Under the pieces are notes generated by a model. That model did no database searches. It was not told the DNA's origin and saw nothing but the letters and a program-made list of their open reading frames with translations. Both the position numbers and the translations under genes were made by a program. A stretch of 38,842 nt of DNA from Cellulomonas algicola (GTDB lineage: Bacteria; Actinomycetota; Actinomycetes; Actinomycetales; Cellulomonadaceae): contig NZ_BHYL01000125.1 of the NCBI RefSeq assembly GCF_003851725.1, forward strand, positions 1-38,842, given 5' to 3'. Below, one piece after another: positions 1,826 to 13,153 of the stretch. The first letter of the stretch is position 1. Each line of letters starts with the position of its first letter.

Positions 1826-1898
1826 GCGCCTGTAGCTCAGGGGATAGAGCACCGCTCTCCTAAAGCGGGTGTCGGCAGTTCGAATCTGCCCAGGCGCA
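1826..1898 (+). tRNA. tRNA-Arg (anticodon CCT)
   Basis: The cloverleaf folds cleanly. The acceptor stem GCGCCTG/CAGGCGC has discriminator A1898. The D stem is GCTC/GAGC and the anticodon stem CCGCT/AGCGG has loop CTCCTAA, giving anticodon CCT at 1859-1861. The T stem GGCAG/CTGCC has the TTCGAAT loop. The tRNA reads AGG codons. CCA is not fully encoded (ACA follows). A TAGGCT -10-like hexamer at 1762-1767 could serve its promoter. Its 3' half is duplicated near 9493-9536, which marks it as the integration target of the following island. Confidence 0.97.
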
Positions 1899-1899
1899 C
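1857..1899 (+). repeat. attL-like repeat (tRNA-Arg anticodon loop to 3' end)
   Basis: The tRNA segment from the anticodon loop through the acceptor stem matches 9493-9536 with about four substitutions and one inserted base. The intact tRNA lies on this side, as expected for an element that integrated downstream of a tRNA 3' end. Confidence 0.75.
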
Positions 1900-3135: not shown

Positions 3136-4563
3136 CTACGGCGCCAGAAGCCAGCCAACGATGGCTGCGGCGACAGCTGTAGGACCGTCGACTTCTCGAG
3201 TCCCGAAGTGGCCACGAACGCTGAAGATCTGACTTCGCTTCATCCTCACGAGTTCGTATCGGTCAGCTTCGATGATCACGGGCGCACCGTGCCCATGGAC
3301 GACGAAGGCGATCTCCCATCTCTGCTCCGTGTCCATCAGGTCGTTCCGTGTCCAGTCGAGGCCTTCGAGGCCCTCGGGGGCGTCAGGCGGAATCGAGTCG
3401 TCTAGGAGTTCGCGCCACCATCCCGAGTCGGGGAAGCCGGGCGCCGCGGCTAGGGCGATGGCAAGAGCGTCCTTGCCTTCGCTGATTGAGTCGTAGCGCG
3501 GAAGATACCCCGAGAACCTTGCCGGAGCCGCCGCGCGGAGCTCTTGAACGTCGGACTCCACGAGATAACCAGAAACGGGAACTTCGATCGCGACATCGTC
3601 GAACTGTCGAGAGGCCAGATGCTCGTGCTCGTCGGGCAATGGGTGCCAGACAGTCGCCGATATGTTGGCGATCAGTGTGAGTGAGGCGGTCACGAGGCTC
3701 CCCACCGGACCATCGGAGGGCCGAGTCGTCTTAAGGTCACCGACTGCCGCTATCCCAGTTATCTCGGTGACGGACGCGGCCAAGACGAGCTCGGACGTGA
3801 GAAACTCCAGCAATGTGTCGTCGATGACCGCGGCCAGGTCATCAAGTTTGCCGGCACGGCCGATTGAGCCGATTGAGGCGGGAAGATTCGCCGCGACGTG
3901 GCGCGCAAGGTTTAGTGCCAGCTCGCTCGCCGGCGCGGGCACGAGGCCGCGAAGTGCCGCGACAAGCTCATTTCTGCGGGCATAGCGCACGGGCAACTGC
4001 AGGCCGAGGTGCGCAATTGCAGCGTCGACGTCGGAGTCGGCCGTCAGCAGGACAAGCCTCGTCGAATCGTGTTCTGCGAGGGCCAGCGCATCATGTACCC
4101 ACGCCATGTCGGCCGCGCCTGTCTTGACCCCGGACTTTCTCTCACCTGGGCCTTGCATCAAGACTTGTGCTCGGAGGCCAGCCAATGCTGCAACGGGCGT
4201 CGCTGGTAGTACTGAGACGTTGTCGAGCCCGGAGAGTAGCCGGGTGAGATGTTCCAGCACCTGTTCGACGGTGACCTCAGGGACGTTGAACCGGTCAACG
4301 ACTGCGGGGAATGCGCCAGCGATTCGTGAGCCGCGCAGCGTCTTCGTGCTCGCTCGGAGAGAGTCGTAGTGGGCGGCGAGGTCAGCGTGAGCATGCTGAG
4401 CCCACTCCCAAAGGACCACTTCAGGGATGACTACCTCGACGTCCGCGCCCTTGAGCTCATTGGCGAGCCCCTCGACCTGGTCGAGTTGAACCTTGCCGCG
4501 GCCAAACGCATTTGCGTCAACGACGGCCCACCGCACCCGCGCTGTCAGGTCGTTGTCGCTCAC
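3136..4563 (-). CDS. PIN-domain (DUF4935-type) putative ribonuclease
   Basis: Predicted 475-residue protein with an N-terminal PIN-like nuclease domain (about 12-195). The acidic positions typical of PIN metal sites are present: D16 in AVVDAN, E48/E53 in IPEVVLWEW, D152/D158 in GAADMAWVHDAL, and D176/D178 in LLTADSDVD. The remaining 270 residues are of unknown type. The longer ATG frame upstream is not favoured. A GTG at 4563 lies 7 nt after a TATCCT -10 hexamer (4571-4576), so the mRNA is probably leaderless. The gene is divergent from the HEPN gene. PIN proteins of this type cut RNA and occur in toxin and anti-phage settings. A role in defence is inferred from the island context. Confidence 0.75.
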   Translation of the reverse strand: MSDNDLTARVRWAVVDANAFGRGKVQLDQVEGLANELKGADVEVVIPEVVLWEWAQHAHADLAAHYDSLRASTKTLRGSRIAGAFPAVVDRFNVPEVTVEQVLEHLTRLLSGLDNVSVLPATPVAALAGLRAQVLMQGPGERKSGVKTGAADMAWVHDALALAEHDSTRLVLLTADSDVDAAIAHLGLQLPVRYARRNELVAALRGLVPAPASELALNLARHVAANLPASIGSIGRAGKLDDLAAVIDDTLLEFLTSELVLAASVTEITGIAAVGDLKTTRPSDGPVGSLVTASLTLIANISATVWHPLPDEHEHLASRQFDDVAIEVPVSGYLVESDVQELRAAAPARFSGYLPRYDSISEGKDALAIALAAAPGFPDSGWWRELLDDSIPPDAPEGLEGLDWTRNDLMDTEQRWEIAFVVHGHGAPVIIEADRYELVRMKRSQIFSVRGHFGTREVDGPTAVAAAIVGWLLAP

Positions 4564-4570
4564 GCGACCC

Positions 4571-4576
4571 AGGATA
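4571..4576 (-). promoter_or_regulatory. -10 element of a probable leaderless promoter for the PIN gene
   Basis: On the minus strand TATCCT (TANNNT type) is followed by seven bases and GTG. No Shine-Dalgarno is visible, which is the usual geometry of actinobacterial leaderless transcripts. The -35 region is weak. Confidence 0.45.
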
Positions 4577-4752
4577 GATGACGCGCGGAGAGAGATCCAC
4601 GAAGGTGAAGTGGTACTCCAGGACGGTAAGGCGATCGAGTGATCGTTCGGCGCTACCACGATCGTCGCCGAGGGCGAGGACACCTGCTCGATCACGGCCT
4701 GTACTTGTTTGGTGCGACAACTTCAGCGCATACGGGCGGGCAGGATCCCCTG

Positions 4753-4766
4753 CCGACGTACGTCGG
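4753..4766. promoter_or_regulatory. 14-bp perfect palindrome, candidate operator
   Basis: CCGACGTACGTCGG lies centrally between the divergent PIN and HEPN start codons. It is a candidate repressor site. No regulator gene is recognised in the island, so its protein partner is unknown. Confidence 0.35.
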
Positions 4767-4893
4767 GTGAATGCAGTGGATCGAACGGCGGGGGCGGCCG
4801 CCAGCGCGCTAGGTTCGCATGAAGGCCACACCCGACCGCTCCACGCGGGCCGGAACGCCAACCGAACCCAATCGCGTTGGGAGGCACTAGACG

Positions 4894-5499
4894 ATGCCAA
4901 TTGCCCCACTGGACTACGCCCTCGACCTCCTTGATCGAGCAGAGGCGATGGCCAAAACGGCCGGGAGGCCGTCCGCGTCCATCCAAGACACAAGAGTCGA
5001 CATCCTGCGGTCTGCCTGGGTGTTCGTGGGCGCCTCAATCGACACGTACTTTCACGAACGGATCAGGCGCAACATGTTGGCCAACATGAGTAAATCCGCT
5101 CGGAAGTTCTCCGTCCCGCTTGGTGACGTTGACGACATGGTAGCGCTGTTTCTGGCGAATCGATCAGGGTCGCGACCGCGAGTGAAACTGGGCAACATCA
5201 TTCACCACGCACTATTAAAAGAGACCTTCCAGGGGGCTACAAATGTCGAGCGGGGACTCGGCCTTATTGGCGTTACGAAGTACTGGGATCGCCTGTCTCA
5301 GGAACTAGGCCAGTCGCCGACTGACATTAAAGAGCGACTCAATGCACAGTACCTTCGCAGAAACAAGATAGCGCACGAGGGCGACTATACGCGCCACGAT
5401 CGACCGCAGCAGTTTTGGTATGACACGATTGATCGCGCTGAAGTCGACGCCGAGATTCAGTGGACGAGGGGCTTCATTAGAGCAATAGATAACTTATAG
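4894..5499 (+). CDS. HEPN-domain protein (RiboL-PSP-HEPN-like), putative RNase
   Basis: A 201-residue, mainly helical protein. The C-terminal half carries RRNKIAH (155-161), a full HEPN RNxxxH active-site motif (R156, N157, H161). The N-terminal helix pair (AWVFVGASIDTYFHERI, 41-57) resembles the first helices of RiboL-PSP-type HEPN proteins. HEPN nucleases usually dimerise and cut RNA, often as abortive-infection or toxin components. GGGAGG lies 11 nt upstream of the ATG. Codon use is clearly AT-richer than in flanking housekeeping genes (for example ATT AAA, AAC TTA TAG), a sign of transfer. It is divergent from the PIN gene and convergent (86 bp apart) with the SIR2 gene. Function as a defence effector is inferred. 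Confidence 0.8.
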   Translation: MPIAPLDYALDLLDRAEAMAKTAGRPSASIQDTRVDILRSAWVFVGASIDTYFHERIRRNMLANMSKSARKFSVPLGDVDDMVALFLANRSGSRPRVKLGNIIHHALLKETFQGATNVERGLGLIGVTKYWDRLSQELGQSPTDIKERLNAQYLRRNKIAHEGDYTRHDRPQQFWYDTIDRAEVDAEIQWTRGFIRAIDNL

Positions 5500-5585
5500 T
5501 TGCCCCTTGGGAGCGGGTCGTGCGACGGGCAAGAGCGAGAGTTGGGCACGAGCACTTAACCAGTGCCCGCGAGAAGTGCAGACGC

Positions 5586-6827
5586 TCACCGAGGCACGAA
5601 CAGGTATCTTAGGTCGGACGAGAAGGGGCTCTCTGCCCTGTGGGCGAACTGATCGCTGATGCTTTCGGAGTAGCGCCCACCGACAAACTCTGCGGCTATG
5701 GACTCCGTGAAGTTCGCTTCGCGAGCTCGATCCCAATCCCTGGGCGTGCCGGAATTCCTGAGTTGTGCTACCTCGGCCAACGTGTCGTCATTGGACGTCA
5801 CAAGAGGTCGGGAATAGCCGTCTCCATCGCGGTCGGTACCCCAAGAGACAATATCGCCCGATGTCACGTCTGTATATTCTAGAACTGAACCGAAGGTCTG
5901 GATTTCTTGCGAGTCTCCAAGCAATTCTCGGACCCGACGTGCAGGTTCAGGAGACGGGTCGACAACGGTGACAAGGTCCCAAGGCCCGGAAAGCAGAATC
6001 ATCTGGCGCACCTGAACGTCACTTGGTGGGAAACTGAACCCTAGAACGACGAGTTCATCCGCCTGCTTTAGTGACGTATAGGCGCGCCGCCACTGAGCGC
6101 GTAAAGACTGATTTGAGTAGAAGGTACTCTTGGCGGCTGTCGGCGGAACAAGAAGAGGCTCAAGATCGTCCAGGAGGACGTCGTATCGCGGCGAGTCGTC
6201 GACTCGGATGCCTCGAGGTGCCCATGAGAAGCCTCCGTCGTCCAGCACGATCCTGGCCGTCGCGGGACTCGTCAGACCGCCGTAGTGCCAGTTGATCGAC
6301 CCGTGCAGTTTGAACAACCTCGGCATCGGGCCCCGAGGCTCGGACGAAGACACGAAGCCGCTCGACCCCGGGGGCCAACGCATCTCCAGAGGGATTGCGT
6401 ACAGGTCGCCGAGGGACCCGTATCGCCCGCTGTTGGCGAGGGCGCGCTCGAAGAGTAGGTCGTAGTTGAAAGTAATTACCGCGGCCTGTTCGTGCGCCAG
6501 TTGCAGTACAAGGCGTTTCAGCCAGAGTGGCGGCGAGCTGTCGAGGACTTGCGCTTCATGACGTGCAACGATGCCGCGAATGGCCCGGCTGGCCTGAAGG
6601 AACGTCGCTTGGTTCCTGAGTGCTTCAAGATCGCTATCCCAGGGCTGACTTGTCGACAAATAGGAGAGCCACGCCTCGAGGTCATCTCCAAAGACAGCAA
6701 GTGTGTCCTCGGGCAATCCCATGTCTCCTAGCAGATCTGCCACCAGGTCAGGCATGAGAGGCATCTCCGCGCTGATCGCCTTTGAGAAGCCTGCACCCGC
6801 AAGAACGGCACGAGTATGCGGTCCCAT
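5586..6827 (-). CDS. SIR2-domain protein, putative NAD-consuming defence effector
   Basis: Predicted 413-residue protein with a bacterial SIR2-like domain. Visible motifs are the NAD-binding loop GAGFS (11-15), TFNYD with N121, KLHGSINW with the likely catalytic H175, and VLGFSFPPSD (261-270). The last ~100 residues match no domain I know. The frame is open far upstream, but ATG 6827 is chosen. It has GGGGAG at the right distance and begins directly before the first SIR2 strand, while the upstream extension is Arg/Pro-rich like non-coding frames. SIR2 domains in prokaryotic immunity (Thoeris ThsA, DSR1, SIR2-APAZ and others) deplete NAD+ on phage infection. This one has no recognised partner domain, so partners may be neighbours in the island. 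Confidence 0.85.
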   Translation of the reverse strand: MGPHTRAVLAGAGFSKAISAEMPLMPDLVADLLGDMGLPEDTLAVFGDDLEAWLSYLSTSQPWDSDLEALRNQATFLQASRAIRGIVARHEAQVLDSSPPLWLKRLVLQLAHEQAAVITFNYDLLFERALANSGRYGSLGDLYAIPLEMRWPPGSSGFVSSSEPRGPMPRLFKLHGSINWHYGGLTSPATARIVLDDGGFSWAPRGIRVDDSPRYDVLLDDLEPLLVPPTAAKSTFYSNQSLRAQWRRAYTSLKQADELVVLGFSFPPSDVQVRQMILLSGPWDLVTVVDPSPEPARRVRELLGDSQEIQTFGSVLEYTDVTSGDIVSWGTDRDGDGYSRPLVTSNDDTLAEVAQLRNSGTPRDWDRAREANFTESIAAEFVGGRYSESISDQFAHRAESPFSSDLRYLFVPR

Positions 6828-7004: not shown

Positions 7005-7332
7005 ATGACCGATCGTGGCTTGCGGGATCTGGCACAGGCTCAGCGGCTCGCCGCCGAAGCGTGGCACCAGTCCGGCGCGGTGTGGGTCGGAGATTGGCAC
7101 GCCCATCCCGACGGAGATCGAGCACCGAGTCCGATCGATCTTCGGTCCTACGCCGCACACTTGACCGACTCCGGAACTCGCTTTTCAGAGGTTTGTTGCG
7201 GTCGTGGTCAGCTGCGCCCAGAGCGTGCCCGACGAGATTGCCGCGTGGTTGATCGGCCTGGGAAGTGTCACGTCCGTGCCGCTCCTGGTAACGGATTCTG
7301 GGCTTCTCGCGCGACCGGTGGAGGACCCGTGA
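7005..7332 (+). pseudogene. Frameshifted JAB/MPN metalloprotease (Prok-JAB, Cap3-like) remnant
   Basis: The frame from ATG 7005 encodes DRGLRDLAQAQRLAAEAWHQ, then GDWHAHPDGDRAPSPIDLRS. This is a clear JAMM signature HxHP(x)nSxxD with the upstream RD...AQ pattern of Cap3-like isopeptidases. After SYAAHLTDS (about 7170) the protein-like sequence moves to another frame (ELAFQRFVAVVVSCAQ, then DEIAAWLIGLGSVT and GLLARPVEDP) and ends at 7332. One extra base near GACTCCGGA would explain it. The N-terminal part with the catalytic Glu is not recognisable. No E1 or E2 partner genes are seen. It lies between the tail of the 366-residue gene and the head of the SIR2 gene, on the opposite strand. Confidence 0.65.
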
Positions 7333-7428: not shown

Positions 7429-8529
7429 TCAGGAGTCCGGGCTGTCGTCCTCGACTACTACACCTTTCTGCACCTGTCCGGTCTGACGCAAGACGTAGGC
7501 CTGCCTGCCGTCCGCGATGATCAGGGGCGGCGTTGCGCCCGCGTCGTCCGTCGTGATCGGCATCCGGATCCCGGCGGCGCCCTTTGCCAGCCGATTCGGG
7601 TGCGGACCGAGCGCCAGACCTGGATGCGCCGGCCCGAGGTAGTCGCGACCTGCGAAATGGCGATCCGCGGCGGCTGCGAACACCGCTCCGTATACCAGCG
7701 TCAACATCAGGCACTCCGCGATGATTTGCGGTGTGCGCAGGTTAAACTGGCTGACTTCCCACGCGCCGGGGTGCGGGCTGTGCTTCCCGTGCTGGCGGGT
7801 CAGGGTCTCTGCTGCGACGTCGTCGACGATGACGATGGCGCCAGTGAACGTCGACAGCGGCAGGTTCCCCTGCTCGTTCGGGCCTTGCCGCGTGAAGACG
7901 ATGCGGTTCTGATCGGTGACGCGGACCGCGAGGCCGTGCTTGAACTTGTTGTTGGCGGCATTGGTGTCGAGCCCGTCCCCGTAGATGAGGTCGATCGCTC
8001 GGAGAATCCAAGCCCATGCCGCCTCGACAGCGGTGCGAACCTTTGGCGGGACCGACGCCTCGTCCTTTGGGATCTCCGCTGCGGTCAGAAGGAGCGGACC
8101 TAGAGGTAGCGGTGCCTTCGCCTCCCCGCGTGCCAGGACGGCGTCGCAGACCTGGCGGTTCGTGGCCCGATCGTCCGACAACGCTGCCCACAGGCACGCG
8201 TCGGGCTGTCCGAAGTTCTCGAGCACCGCACGGACGAGCCGGACAAGAGACTCGGCGATGTGCTGCCGCAGGGCGAAGGCGTCAAGTCGTCGCGAGATGT
8301 CTCGGTCGTCGGTTGCCGGCTCGGTCGAGCTCAAGATGCGTGGGTCCAGACCCAGCTTGAGAACGTCAGCCGTTAGCCCTGCGGTGTGGTCCAGCGGAAC
8401 GGGTTCGGCCAGCAGCCGGTCGATGCGCGATCGCCAGTACGCAACCGGGTCGGACGTGTAGAAGTCGTCGTCGAGGTCGCGGCGCTGCTCCGGGGTGAGG
8501 TCGGGGCCTTCTTTCGAGGCTGAGTACAT
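7429..8529 (-). CDS. Unrecognised 366-residue island protein with HEPN-like NNKFKH motif
   Basis: AGGAGG precedes ATG 8529 and the frame has normal GC-rich codon bias, so this is very likely a real gene. No membrane segment or signal peptide is visible. The first ~200 residues look helical (RQHIAESLVRLVRAVL at 89-104; AWAWILRAIDLIYG near 171-184). They lead into TNAANNKFKHGLAV (N193, N194, H198). Spacing and context (paired helices, polar Asn, then KH) resemble degenerate HEPN active sites of the N-x4-H kind. The C-terminal half is beta-rich and Pro/Gly-rich. I do not recognise a family. The HEPN reading is a hypothesis. It is the first gene on the minus strand upstream of SIR2, separated from it by about 600 bp holding the JAB remnant. 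Confidence 0.65.
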   Translation of the reverse strand: MYSASKEGPDLTPEQRRDLDDDFYTSDPVAYWRSRIDRLLAEPVPLDHTAGLTADVLKLGLDPRILSSTEPATDDRDISRRLDAFALRQHIAESLVRLVRAVLENFGQPDACLWAALSDDRATNRQVCDAVLARGEAKAPLPLGPLLLTAAEIPKDEASVPPKVRTAVEAAWAWILRAIDLIYGDGLDTNAANNKFKHGLAVRVTDQNRIVFTRQGPNEQGNLPLSTFTGAIVIVDDVAAETLTRQHGKHSPHPGAWEVSQFNLRTPQIIAECLMLTLVYGAVFAAAADRHFAGRDYLGPAHPGLALGPHPNRLAKGAAGIRMPITTDDAGATPPLIIADGRQAYVLRQTGQVQKGVVVEDDSPDS

Positions 8530-9492: not shown

Positions 9493-9536
9493 TCTCCCAA
9501 AAGCGGGTGTCGGCGGCCCGAATCTGCCCAGGCGCA
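9493..9536 (+). repeat. attR-like degenerate copy of the tRNA-Arg 3' half
   Basis: TCTCCCAAAAGCGGGTGTCG and the following bases to GGCGCAC match the tRNA from 1858 onward. There is one extra base in the former anticodon loop and four substitutions, three of them in the T-stem/loop (CAGTTCG became CGGCCCG). The 5' half of the tRNA is absent here, so this is an att scar, not a second tRNA gene. Confidence 0.75.
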
Positions 9537-9695
9537 CGGTTGGGTTGTGTGGTTCGCCTCATGCTGGACGCTTGGTGCTCGGCTACAGGGGTGACGGGGG
9601 CTGGGGGGATGCTTGACAAGAGGGTTCGTTCGGCTCCTGATCCGAGTTGGTGCACACGCGCCGAGACGCGCTCCGGTTCATGAGTGGCCGAGACA

Positions 9696-10163
9696 CTAGA
9701 AGCGAGACTTCAACCATCTCCACGCACGCGGCGCTCCGACCCATACGGCCGAACCCCAAAAAGCTGCGGTCAGAACTGCGGTCGCGCAGATGGCGATCGC
9801 CAGCGCATATCGAATCTGCGAAATCCAGAAGGGCTCGAATGGGTCGTAATTGAATGTGGAAAACACGAGCAAGAGGACCCAGCCAGCAAACGCCGACCAC
9901 GCACCTGCGCTCCACAAGACGTCGAGTTGGCGATCCGCGCTTCGTCTAGCCAAGAGGTGTGCAGTCGAGGTAGCGATATGGTCACCGAGTGGCGCGCGCG
10001 CCGGGCTGTTCTTCGGGAGCGCGTTCCAGAGCTCAGCATCGCGGACGATCCGTGCACGTTGCCGGTCATCCCGAGTCCAGCCAGTAAGCCGAGCCACCAA
10101 CGCGACAATGATGGACCCGATGACGCCGACGACTGCGGTAATCATCTCCACAGGGACGTACAT
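9696..10163 (-). CDS. Small membrane protein of unknown function
   Basis: 155 residues with three hydrophobic segments: about 6-27 (MITAVVGVIGSIIVALVARL), about 84-104 (GAWSAFAGWVLLLVFSTF) and about 117-140 (ALAIAICATAVLTAAF). A basic, helical cytoplasmic loop (RDDRQRARIVRDAELWNALP) lies between the first two. ATG 10163 lacks a clear Shine-Dalgarno. ATG 10145 (Met7), preceded by GTGGAG, is an alternative start. It lies just outside the island and after the peptidase E remnant on the same strand. No family is recognised. Codon use is somewhat less GC-biased than in the genes to its right. Confidence 0.6.
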   Translation of the reverse strand: MYVPVEMITAVVGVIGSIIVALVARLTGWTRDDRQRARIVRDAELWNALPKNSPARAPLGDHIATSTAHLLARRSADRQLDVLWSAGAWSAFAGWVLLLVFSTFNYDPFEPFWISQIRYALAIAICATAVLTAAFWGSAVWVGAPRAWRWLKSRF

Positions 10164-10214: not shown

Positions 10215-10531
10215 CGGCAAGGACCGCGTCCCTGCTGCGCGCCGAACCGGGCGCGGCGCAACGAGAGCAGCCATTTCTTCCTGCTCCCAGCGCGATGGTG
10301 GGCAGGGCGGTCTGCTCGAGGACGCCGGGGGGCGCCCAGCCCGGGCCGTTGAGGTACTCGGATCCCACCCCCGCTGCCGCGGTCCTCTGCACCAACGACG
10401 GGCGCACGTCGGACGACACTCTGCGCGGTGGGGACGACGAGGGCGTGCCTCTAGTCGATCGGCGTCCGAGCATCTCCACGAGGGCGGCTTCGGATGCTGG
10501 GGTAGGTCATACCGCCGGACGTGAGCTTCAA
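10215..10531 (-). pseudogene. Peptidase E remnant, second copy
   Basis: Starting at TTG 10531 the sequence reads LKLTSGGMTYPSIR. It then shifts frame into AALVEMLGRR and continues with PSLVQRTAAAGVGSEYLNGP, a Gly-Trp and GVLEQTALPTIA. This parallels the intact gene at 12467-13153 (VKLLLTSGGVTNPSIR, PSLVHRTVAAGAGAEHLTGL, GVLELTALATIG). The catalytic half is missing. The bases upstream (about 10545-10605) also resemble those upstream of the intact gene, including a decayed version of its terminator hairpin. It is therefore a partial duplicate that has degenerated. Confidence 0.8.
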
Positions 10532-12466: not shown

Positions 12467-13153
12467 CTACGGGTGCCGTGCCTTCGAGGATCCCGCCTCG
12501 AACCGCGTCCACCGGCCCTCGGAGACGACGTCGACCGAGCCGTCCACGACGGCGACGGCGGTCTGCTCATCGACGACGTACGAGGGGACGTCGAGGTCGG
12601 CGGCCCAGCGTTCGGCGTGGGCCATGGTGTTGGTCGGGAACGCGTCGAGGTGGGGGAAGATCGCGAAGTCGACGACGCCGAGGGTGCGGTCGTCCGGGGC
12701 GCCGGGCCACTCGACGAACAGGTCGCCGATACGGGGCGTCATGACCATGCTGCCGGCACTCACGCCGACCCAGACGGTGTCGGGCAATGACGGGAACAGG
12801 TCGTCGAGGCCGGACTCGCGGATCCAGTGGGCGAGGTAGGTCGCGTCGCCGCCGTCGACCAGGAGGGCGTCGGCCTCGCGGACCCAGGGGATCCAGCGGT
12901 CGGCGCCGATGGTCGCCAGGGCGGTGAGCTCGAGGACGCCGAGGGACGCCCAACCCAGGCCGGTGAGGTGCTCGGCACCCGCCCCCGCGGCCACCGTCCG
13001 ATGCACCAACGACGGGCCGCACATCGGGTGCCCCCACTGCGCGGTCGGGATGACCAGCGCGTGGCTCTCCTCGATGGGCTTGCCGAGCATCTCGACGAGC
13101 GCGGCCCGGATCGACGGATTGGTCACCCCGCCGGACGTGAGGAGCAGCTTCAC
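12467..13153 (-). CDS. Peptidase E-like protein (family S51, class I glutamine-amidotransferase fold)
   Basis: 228 residues. The family opens with (M/V)KLLLTSGGVTNPSI. The nucleophile elbow GVSAGS places Ser132, and VDFAIFPHLDAF (161-172) has the conserved His168. LLVDGGDATYLAHW matches the GG-substrate region. S51 enzymes cleave Asp-Xaa dipeptides in the cytoplasm; some relatives hydrolyse cyanophycin fragments. GTG 13153 is chosen as start because GGAGGT lies 6 nt upstream and family members begin there. The longer frame to 13231 runs across the neighbour's terminator. A degenerate second copy lies at 10215-10531. Confidence 0.88.
   Translation of the reverse strand: MKLLLTSGGVTNPSIRAALVEMLGKPIEESHALVIPTAQWGHPMCGPSLVHRTVAAGAGAEHLTGLGWASLGVLELTALATIGADRWIPWVREADALLVDGGDATYLAHWIRESGLDDLFPSLPDTVWVGVSAGSMVMTPRIGDLFVEWPGAPDDRTLGVVDFAIFPHLDAFPTNTMAHAERWAADLDVPSYVVDEQTAVAVVDGSVDVVSEGRWTRFEAGSSKARHP

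Follow-up and report, generated by a model that had tools for sequence, protein, structure and literature searches.

Three genes encoding a PIN-domain protein, a HEPN protein and a SIR2-like protein lie side by side in a 38,842-nucleotide stretch of contig NZ_BHYL01000125.1 of Cellulomonas algicola (the whole stretch is referred to here as the window), raising the question of whether they form one defence system or are independent modules that came to lie together. The first-pass annotation had allowed for both options, and our results favour the second, with a probability of about 0.8: three independent solo effectors appear to have accumulated in a decaying tRNA island, which would be ordinary for a defence hotspot. 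HEPN RNases and NAD+-depleting SIR2 proteins are presented as established kinds of phage-defence effector in PMC10952713.

The genes are carried by an island of 7.6 kb, bounded by a tRNA-Arg gene and by a copy of the tRNA 3'-end (Table 1). The last 41 nt of the tRNA gene recur at the right border with 37 identities, the best of 30 shuffles having given 25; these repeats point to insertion at the 3'-end of the tRNA-Arg gene. Together with the integrase remnant they bear out the earlier proposal of an integrated island. The remnant aligned only to the middle of the PHROG 1 profile (positions 225-372 of 611), it had no Pfam match, and its C-terminal catalytic part was not found by eye in six frames. 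The Prok-JAB fragment scored 23.8 bits (cut-off, 25) over positions 57-94 of the 114 of the PF14464 profile, and a scan of two frames did not reveal the remainder of this gene. Because both the integrase and the JAB gene are fragments, the element looks decayed. The third-position GC of the PIN, HEPN and SIR2 genes was 0.65-0.72 (computed on the longest ORF for PIN and SIR2), compared with 0.93-0.99 in four flanking genes, so that the island DNA looks foreign. A low-GC3 ORF, membrane-like by eye, was found just beyond the right repeat (9696-10163), suggesting that foreign DNA may continue past this border. Further on, a 93-nt repeat with 83% identity occurs at 10293-10385 and 12907-12999; the second copy is inside a peptidase S51 gene, and the first is thus probably a gene fragment.

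Table 1. Position of the island features within the window
Feature	Position	Strand	Evidence
tRNA-Arg (anticodon CCT), integration target	1826..1899	+	ARAGORN
att-type repeat, left copy (3'-end of the tRNA-Arg gene)	1859..1899	+	repeat search
Integrase remnant, 182 aa	2457..3005	-	PHROG 1, E 1.1e-15
PIN-domain protein, 475 aa, beta-rich C-terminal part	3136..4563	-	
HEPN protein (RiboL-PSP type), 201 aa, RNxxxH	4894..5499	+	
SIR2-like protein (SIR2_2), predicted NADase, 413 aa	5586..6827	-	
Prok-JAB (JAMM) gene fragment	7050..7163	+	PF14464, E 4.3e-5
366-aa protein, no family recognised	7429..8529	-	
att-type repeat, right copy, 37/41 identical to left	9497..9537	+	repeat search

The first-pass annotation had assigned the three domains and considered each active site complete, and both points held: the genes are intact and the active-site residues are conserved in relatives. 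The SIR2 protein has the GAGFS, N-D and HG motifs and scored above the cut-off of the SIR2_2 profile (PF13289). Its profile matched, over the core, the solved SIR2-family chains 8yhx (E 5.9e-7), 8w9l (E 2.6e-6) and, weakly, 8j4u (E 0.022), and PADLOC SIR2 models matched the protein with a best E of 5.9e-9. DSR1, DSR2 and SIR2-HerA share with it a SIR2 core bearing the N and H residues. However, DSR1 and DSR2 are long proteins of about 1000 aa with a large C-terminal sensor, whereas the window SIR2, at only 413 aa, has its own short C-terminal tail and no large sensor region, and identity with them was rejected. Identity with SIR2-HerA was rejected as well, given that no HerA ATPase domain was present among the six island ORFs scanned.

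The RNxxxH motif of the HEPN protein was found in 14/14 aligned sequences. The protein matched PHROG 13503 (E 1.8e-22) and reached 28.0 bits with Pfam PF18735, just under the cut-off of 28.4; its relative P0016 reached 32.3 bits. PF18735 (RiboL-PSP-HEPN), the probable counterpart of the HEPN MAE_18760 family, comprises, like that family, small HEPN proteins with RNxxxH, as in the window. In PMC10952713 this domain is listed for PD-T4-2, PD-T4-5, PD-T7-3 and ApeA. The similarity of the HEPN profile to solved ApeA chains was weak (E 0.036 and 0.63) and these chains are much longer than the window protein, the match being at chance level and giving no sign of membership.

A ParA/Soj-like gene lies directly upstream of HEPN relatives in an actinobacterial genome (G310), in phage Pf1 and in a viral contig (L134), an arrangement recalling the HEPN-ParA dyad, which PMC3710099 (2013) put forward as probably a toxin-antitoxin pair. 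In the record of the filamentous phage Pf1 (L117, AY324828) the HEPN ORF (1393-1920) is unannotated and stands directly behind the ParA-like Orf317; the same order was seen at L134 (4001-4609) and in an actinobacterial genome (L118, 7961-8557). Neither among the genes called at L119 and L121 nor among those annotated on a Streptomyces plasmid (L110) did a ParA-like gene directly precede HEPN. The dyad was rejected for the island, where the HEPN protein has no recognised ParA-like partner: the gene upstream of position 4894 is the divergent PIN gene, and no ParA-type Pfam match was obtained among the six island ORFs scanned. The three genes might nevertheless be addiction or maintenance genes of the former mobile element, that is, toxins whose antitoxins were lost or silenced, as would fit the occurrence of relatives on plasmids, in Pf1 and beside recombinases, and the toxin-antitoxin proposal for HEPN genes behind ParA-like genes. 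We consider this unlikely, because the six island ORFs scanned included no recognisable ParA-like or antitoxin-like gene and because the reading frames are intact, which would be disfavoured for an active toxin without its partner.

The PIN protein had no family match in Pfam, PADLOC, NCBIfam or PHROG. A structure model supports the PIN fold, the acidic active-site residues are present and conserved in relatives, and VapC folds ranked among the best structural matches. The PIN domain is followed by an extra beta-rich part of about 230 residues. A precomputed PF16289 (PIN_12, DUF4935) label is carried by two of eight PIN relatives (P0009 and P0011); in the profile scan P0009 matched PIN_12 with E 1.3e-5, below the cut-off. 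The fold and the acidic active site are therefore common to PIN_12, VapC and the window protein, but the latter differs in its 475 aa, in its C-terminal extra and in having no recognised VapB-like partner. VapBC modules have a short VapC (about 130 aa) and a vapB gene upstream; identity with them was rejected, since the PIN protein is far longer and its gene is preceded by the divergent gene for HEPN.

PIN relatives were found in eight plasmid records, from Streptomyces, Mycolicibacterium, Gordonia and Cellulosimicrobium. None of these eight loci contained HEPN, SIR2 or the gene for the 366-aa protein in flanks of 5-8 kb, where the record allowed it, and no fixed neighbour was found: 12 of the 16 adjacent genes were compared and no pair was similar at E 0.01. 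Phage records, searched for PIN and HEPN, gave HEPN in one (Pf1) and PIN in none.

For the 366-aa protein no family match was found. Its relatives are encoded by two actinobacterial plasmids and by Goekera deserti, and it was present in 1/81 genomes of the genus sample. Besides the window gene, the family members are located at L035 (16980-18095), L114 (5851-7098) and L115 (3873-5036), and NNKxKHG is common to both aligned copies. The relative in L115 directly precedes a DUF4365 gene, the one in L035 is beside a gene that is nuclease-like by eye, and on both plasmids Abi-type genes occur within a few kb.

SIR2 relatives were collected from 84,980 species genomes with one peptide pattern; 222 were found and the best 80 were kept. 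HEPN or PIN was found in 0/80 of these loci in the available flanks, up to 10 kb (both flanks of at least 3 kb in 47/80 and of at least 5 kb in 42/80), and no fixed neighbour of SIR2 emerged. Twelve further SIR2 loci (seven viral contigs, one plasmid and four genomes possibly overlapping the 80) contained no HEPN, PIN or 366-aa gene. In eight proteobacterial loci (L071, L073, L074, L075, L077, L081, L085 and L098) the SIR2 relative is closely preceded by a gene for a small protein (about 70-110 aa), and the two may form a two-gene unit. When the genes of the window island were clustered with those of the best 80 SIR2 loci and of four plasmid loci, relatives emerged for only four window genes: PIN, HEPN, SIR2 and the gene for the 366-aa protein, which had a relative in 1/80 SIR2 loci.

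Neither PIN nor SIR2 accompanied HEPN in seven loci (L110, L118, L119, L121, L122, L133 and L134) or in Pf1, and SIR2 was absent from the five HEPN genomes searched. In a genus sample of 81 genomes, taken as Cellulomonas because G259 and L031 (Cellulomonas sp. ACRRI) share a profile score, PIN and HEPN were each present in our genome only (1/81), and SIR2 in 5/81, three of them strong (our genome, G259 and G269); genome searches of G259 and G269 gave neither HEPN nor PIN. The family sample contained PIN in 2/145 genomes, our own and G707, whose PIN plasmid is apparently that of the Cellulosimicrobium record and which lacked HEPN and SIR2. The HEPN and SIR2 models behind the negatives in G259, G269, G707 and the HEPN genomes matched our own genome in the searches of the genus sample. 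HEPN was found in 3/198 genomes of the order sample, two of them weak. Among 394 genomes of the class, PIN was present in one, HEPN in 12 and SIR2 in 8, overlapping in our genome only; this search scored the best four (PIN and SIR2) or eight (HEPN) candidates per genome, so that distant relatives may be missed, and wider context came from four of the 11 other HEPN genomes (G310, G487, G611 and G472). Plasmid records yielded PIN in eight, HEPN in one, SIR2 in one and the 366-aa protein in two, all distinct, and scans of these loci revealed no second member of the set. Recurrence or a conserved order of the three homologues across genomes, as the first-pass annotation had proposed to look for, was therefore absent from the samples searched. 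It had also held that homologues that never co-occur, each having other fixed partners, would speak against a single system: co-occurrence was indeed lacking, other fixed partners appeared only for some HEPN relatives (the ParA dyad), and the PIN and SIR2 relatives look solo.

The loci scanned leave out the closest relatives by sequence, which are the HEPN proteins of C. cellasea and Brachybacterium sp. NPDC056505 and the PIN protein of Cellulomonas sp. Root137. Because close-type HEPN and PIN genes are rare, chance co-occurrence would seldom be visible, and only the hypothesis of fixed partners is well tested. The argument against a single system thus rests mainly on the SIR2 loci, the PIN loci and the orientation of the genes: PIN and HEPN are divergent and HEPN and SIR2 convergent, which implies that the three have no common operon.

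With their start codons head to head, at 4563 and 4894, PIN and HEPN could form a divergent pair, a toxin and its counterpart controlled from a common 330-bp region, and SIR2 would then be unrelated; in addition, both genes are rare in the genus sample, where each occurs only in our genome. Nevertheless, the lack of a nearby HEPN at the eight plasmid PIN loci and of PIN at the seven HEPN loci and in Pf1 makes such a pair very unlikely, and a sigma-70 scan found no promoter-like site, a weak argument where an actinobacterium is concerned. A single three-component system, with RNA cleavage (PIN and HEPN) coupled to depletion of NAD+ (SIR2), is extremely improbable: the genes span 3.7 kb with no further gene called in between and their active sites are all intact, but they lie on alternating strands (-/+/-) and the trio does not recur (0/80 of the best of 222 and 0/12 SIR2 loci, 0/8 PIN and 0/8 HEPN loci, and the genomes G259, G269 and G707).

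Independent modules in a defence hotspot, the other option of the first-pass annotation, agree with both the opposite strands and the lack of co-occurrence in the related loci examined. The island would have been inserted at the tRNA-Arg 3'-end and then have decayed, carrying three single-gene effectors, putatively a metal-dependent PIN RNase, a HEPN RNase and a SIR2 NADase. Each would act alone once phage infection, or the loss of a silencing element, sets it off, and would cut RNA or consume NAD+, so that growth of the infected cell stops. Their adjacency would reflect the tendency of tRNA islands to collect such genes, not membership of one complex or pathway. The activities and triggers are predictions, and a role in phage defence is suggested by context and family resemblance.

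The PIN protein, with its own C-terminal part and its solo occurrence on plasmids, is the least ordinary and least explained component of the island. Tentatively, it may represent an undescribed family of solo effectors in which a PIN RNase carries a C-terminal domain for sensing or regulation, one gene per actinobacterial plasmid or island, each working on its own as an RNase for abortive infection or for guarding the plasmid. Adjacent toxin-like genes on an island can mimic one system, and the strand layout and the context of relatives tell the two cases apart. If a defence function were confirmed, the large solo PIN protein would be the gene that adds novelty.
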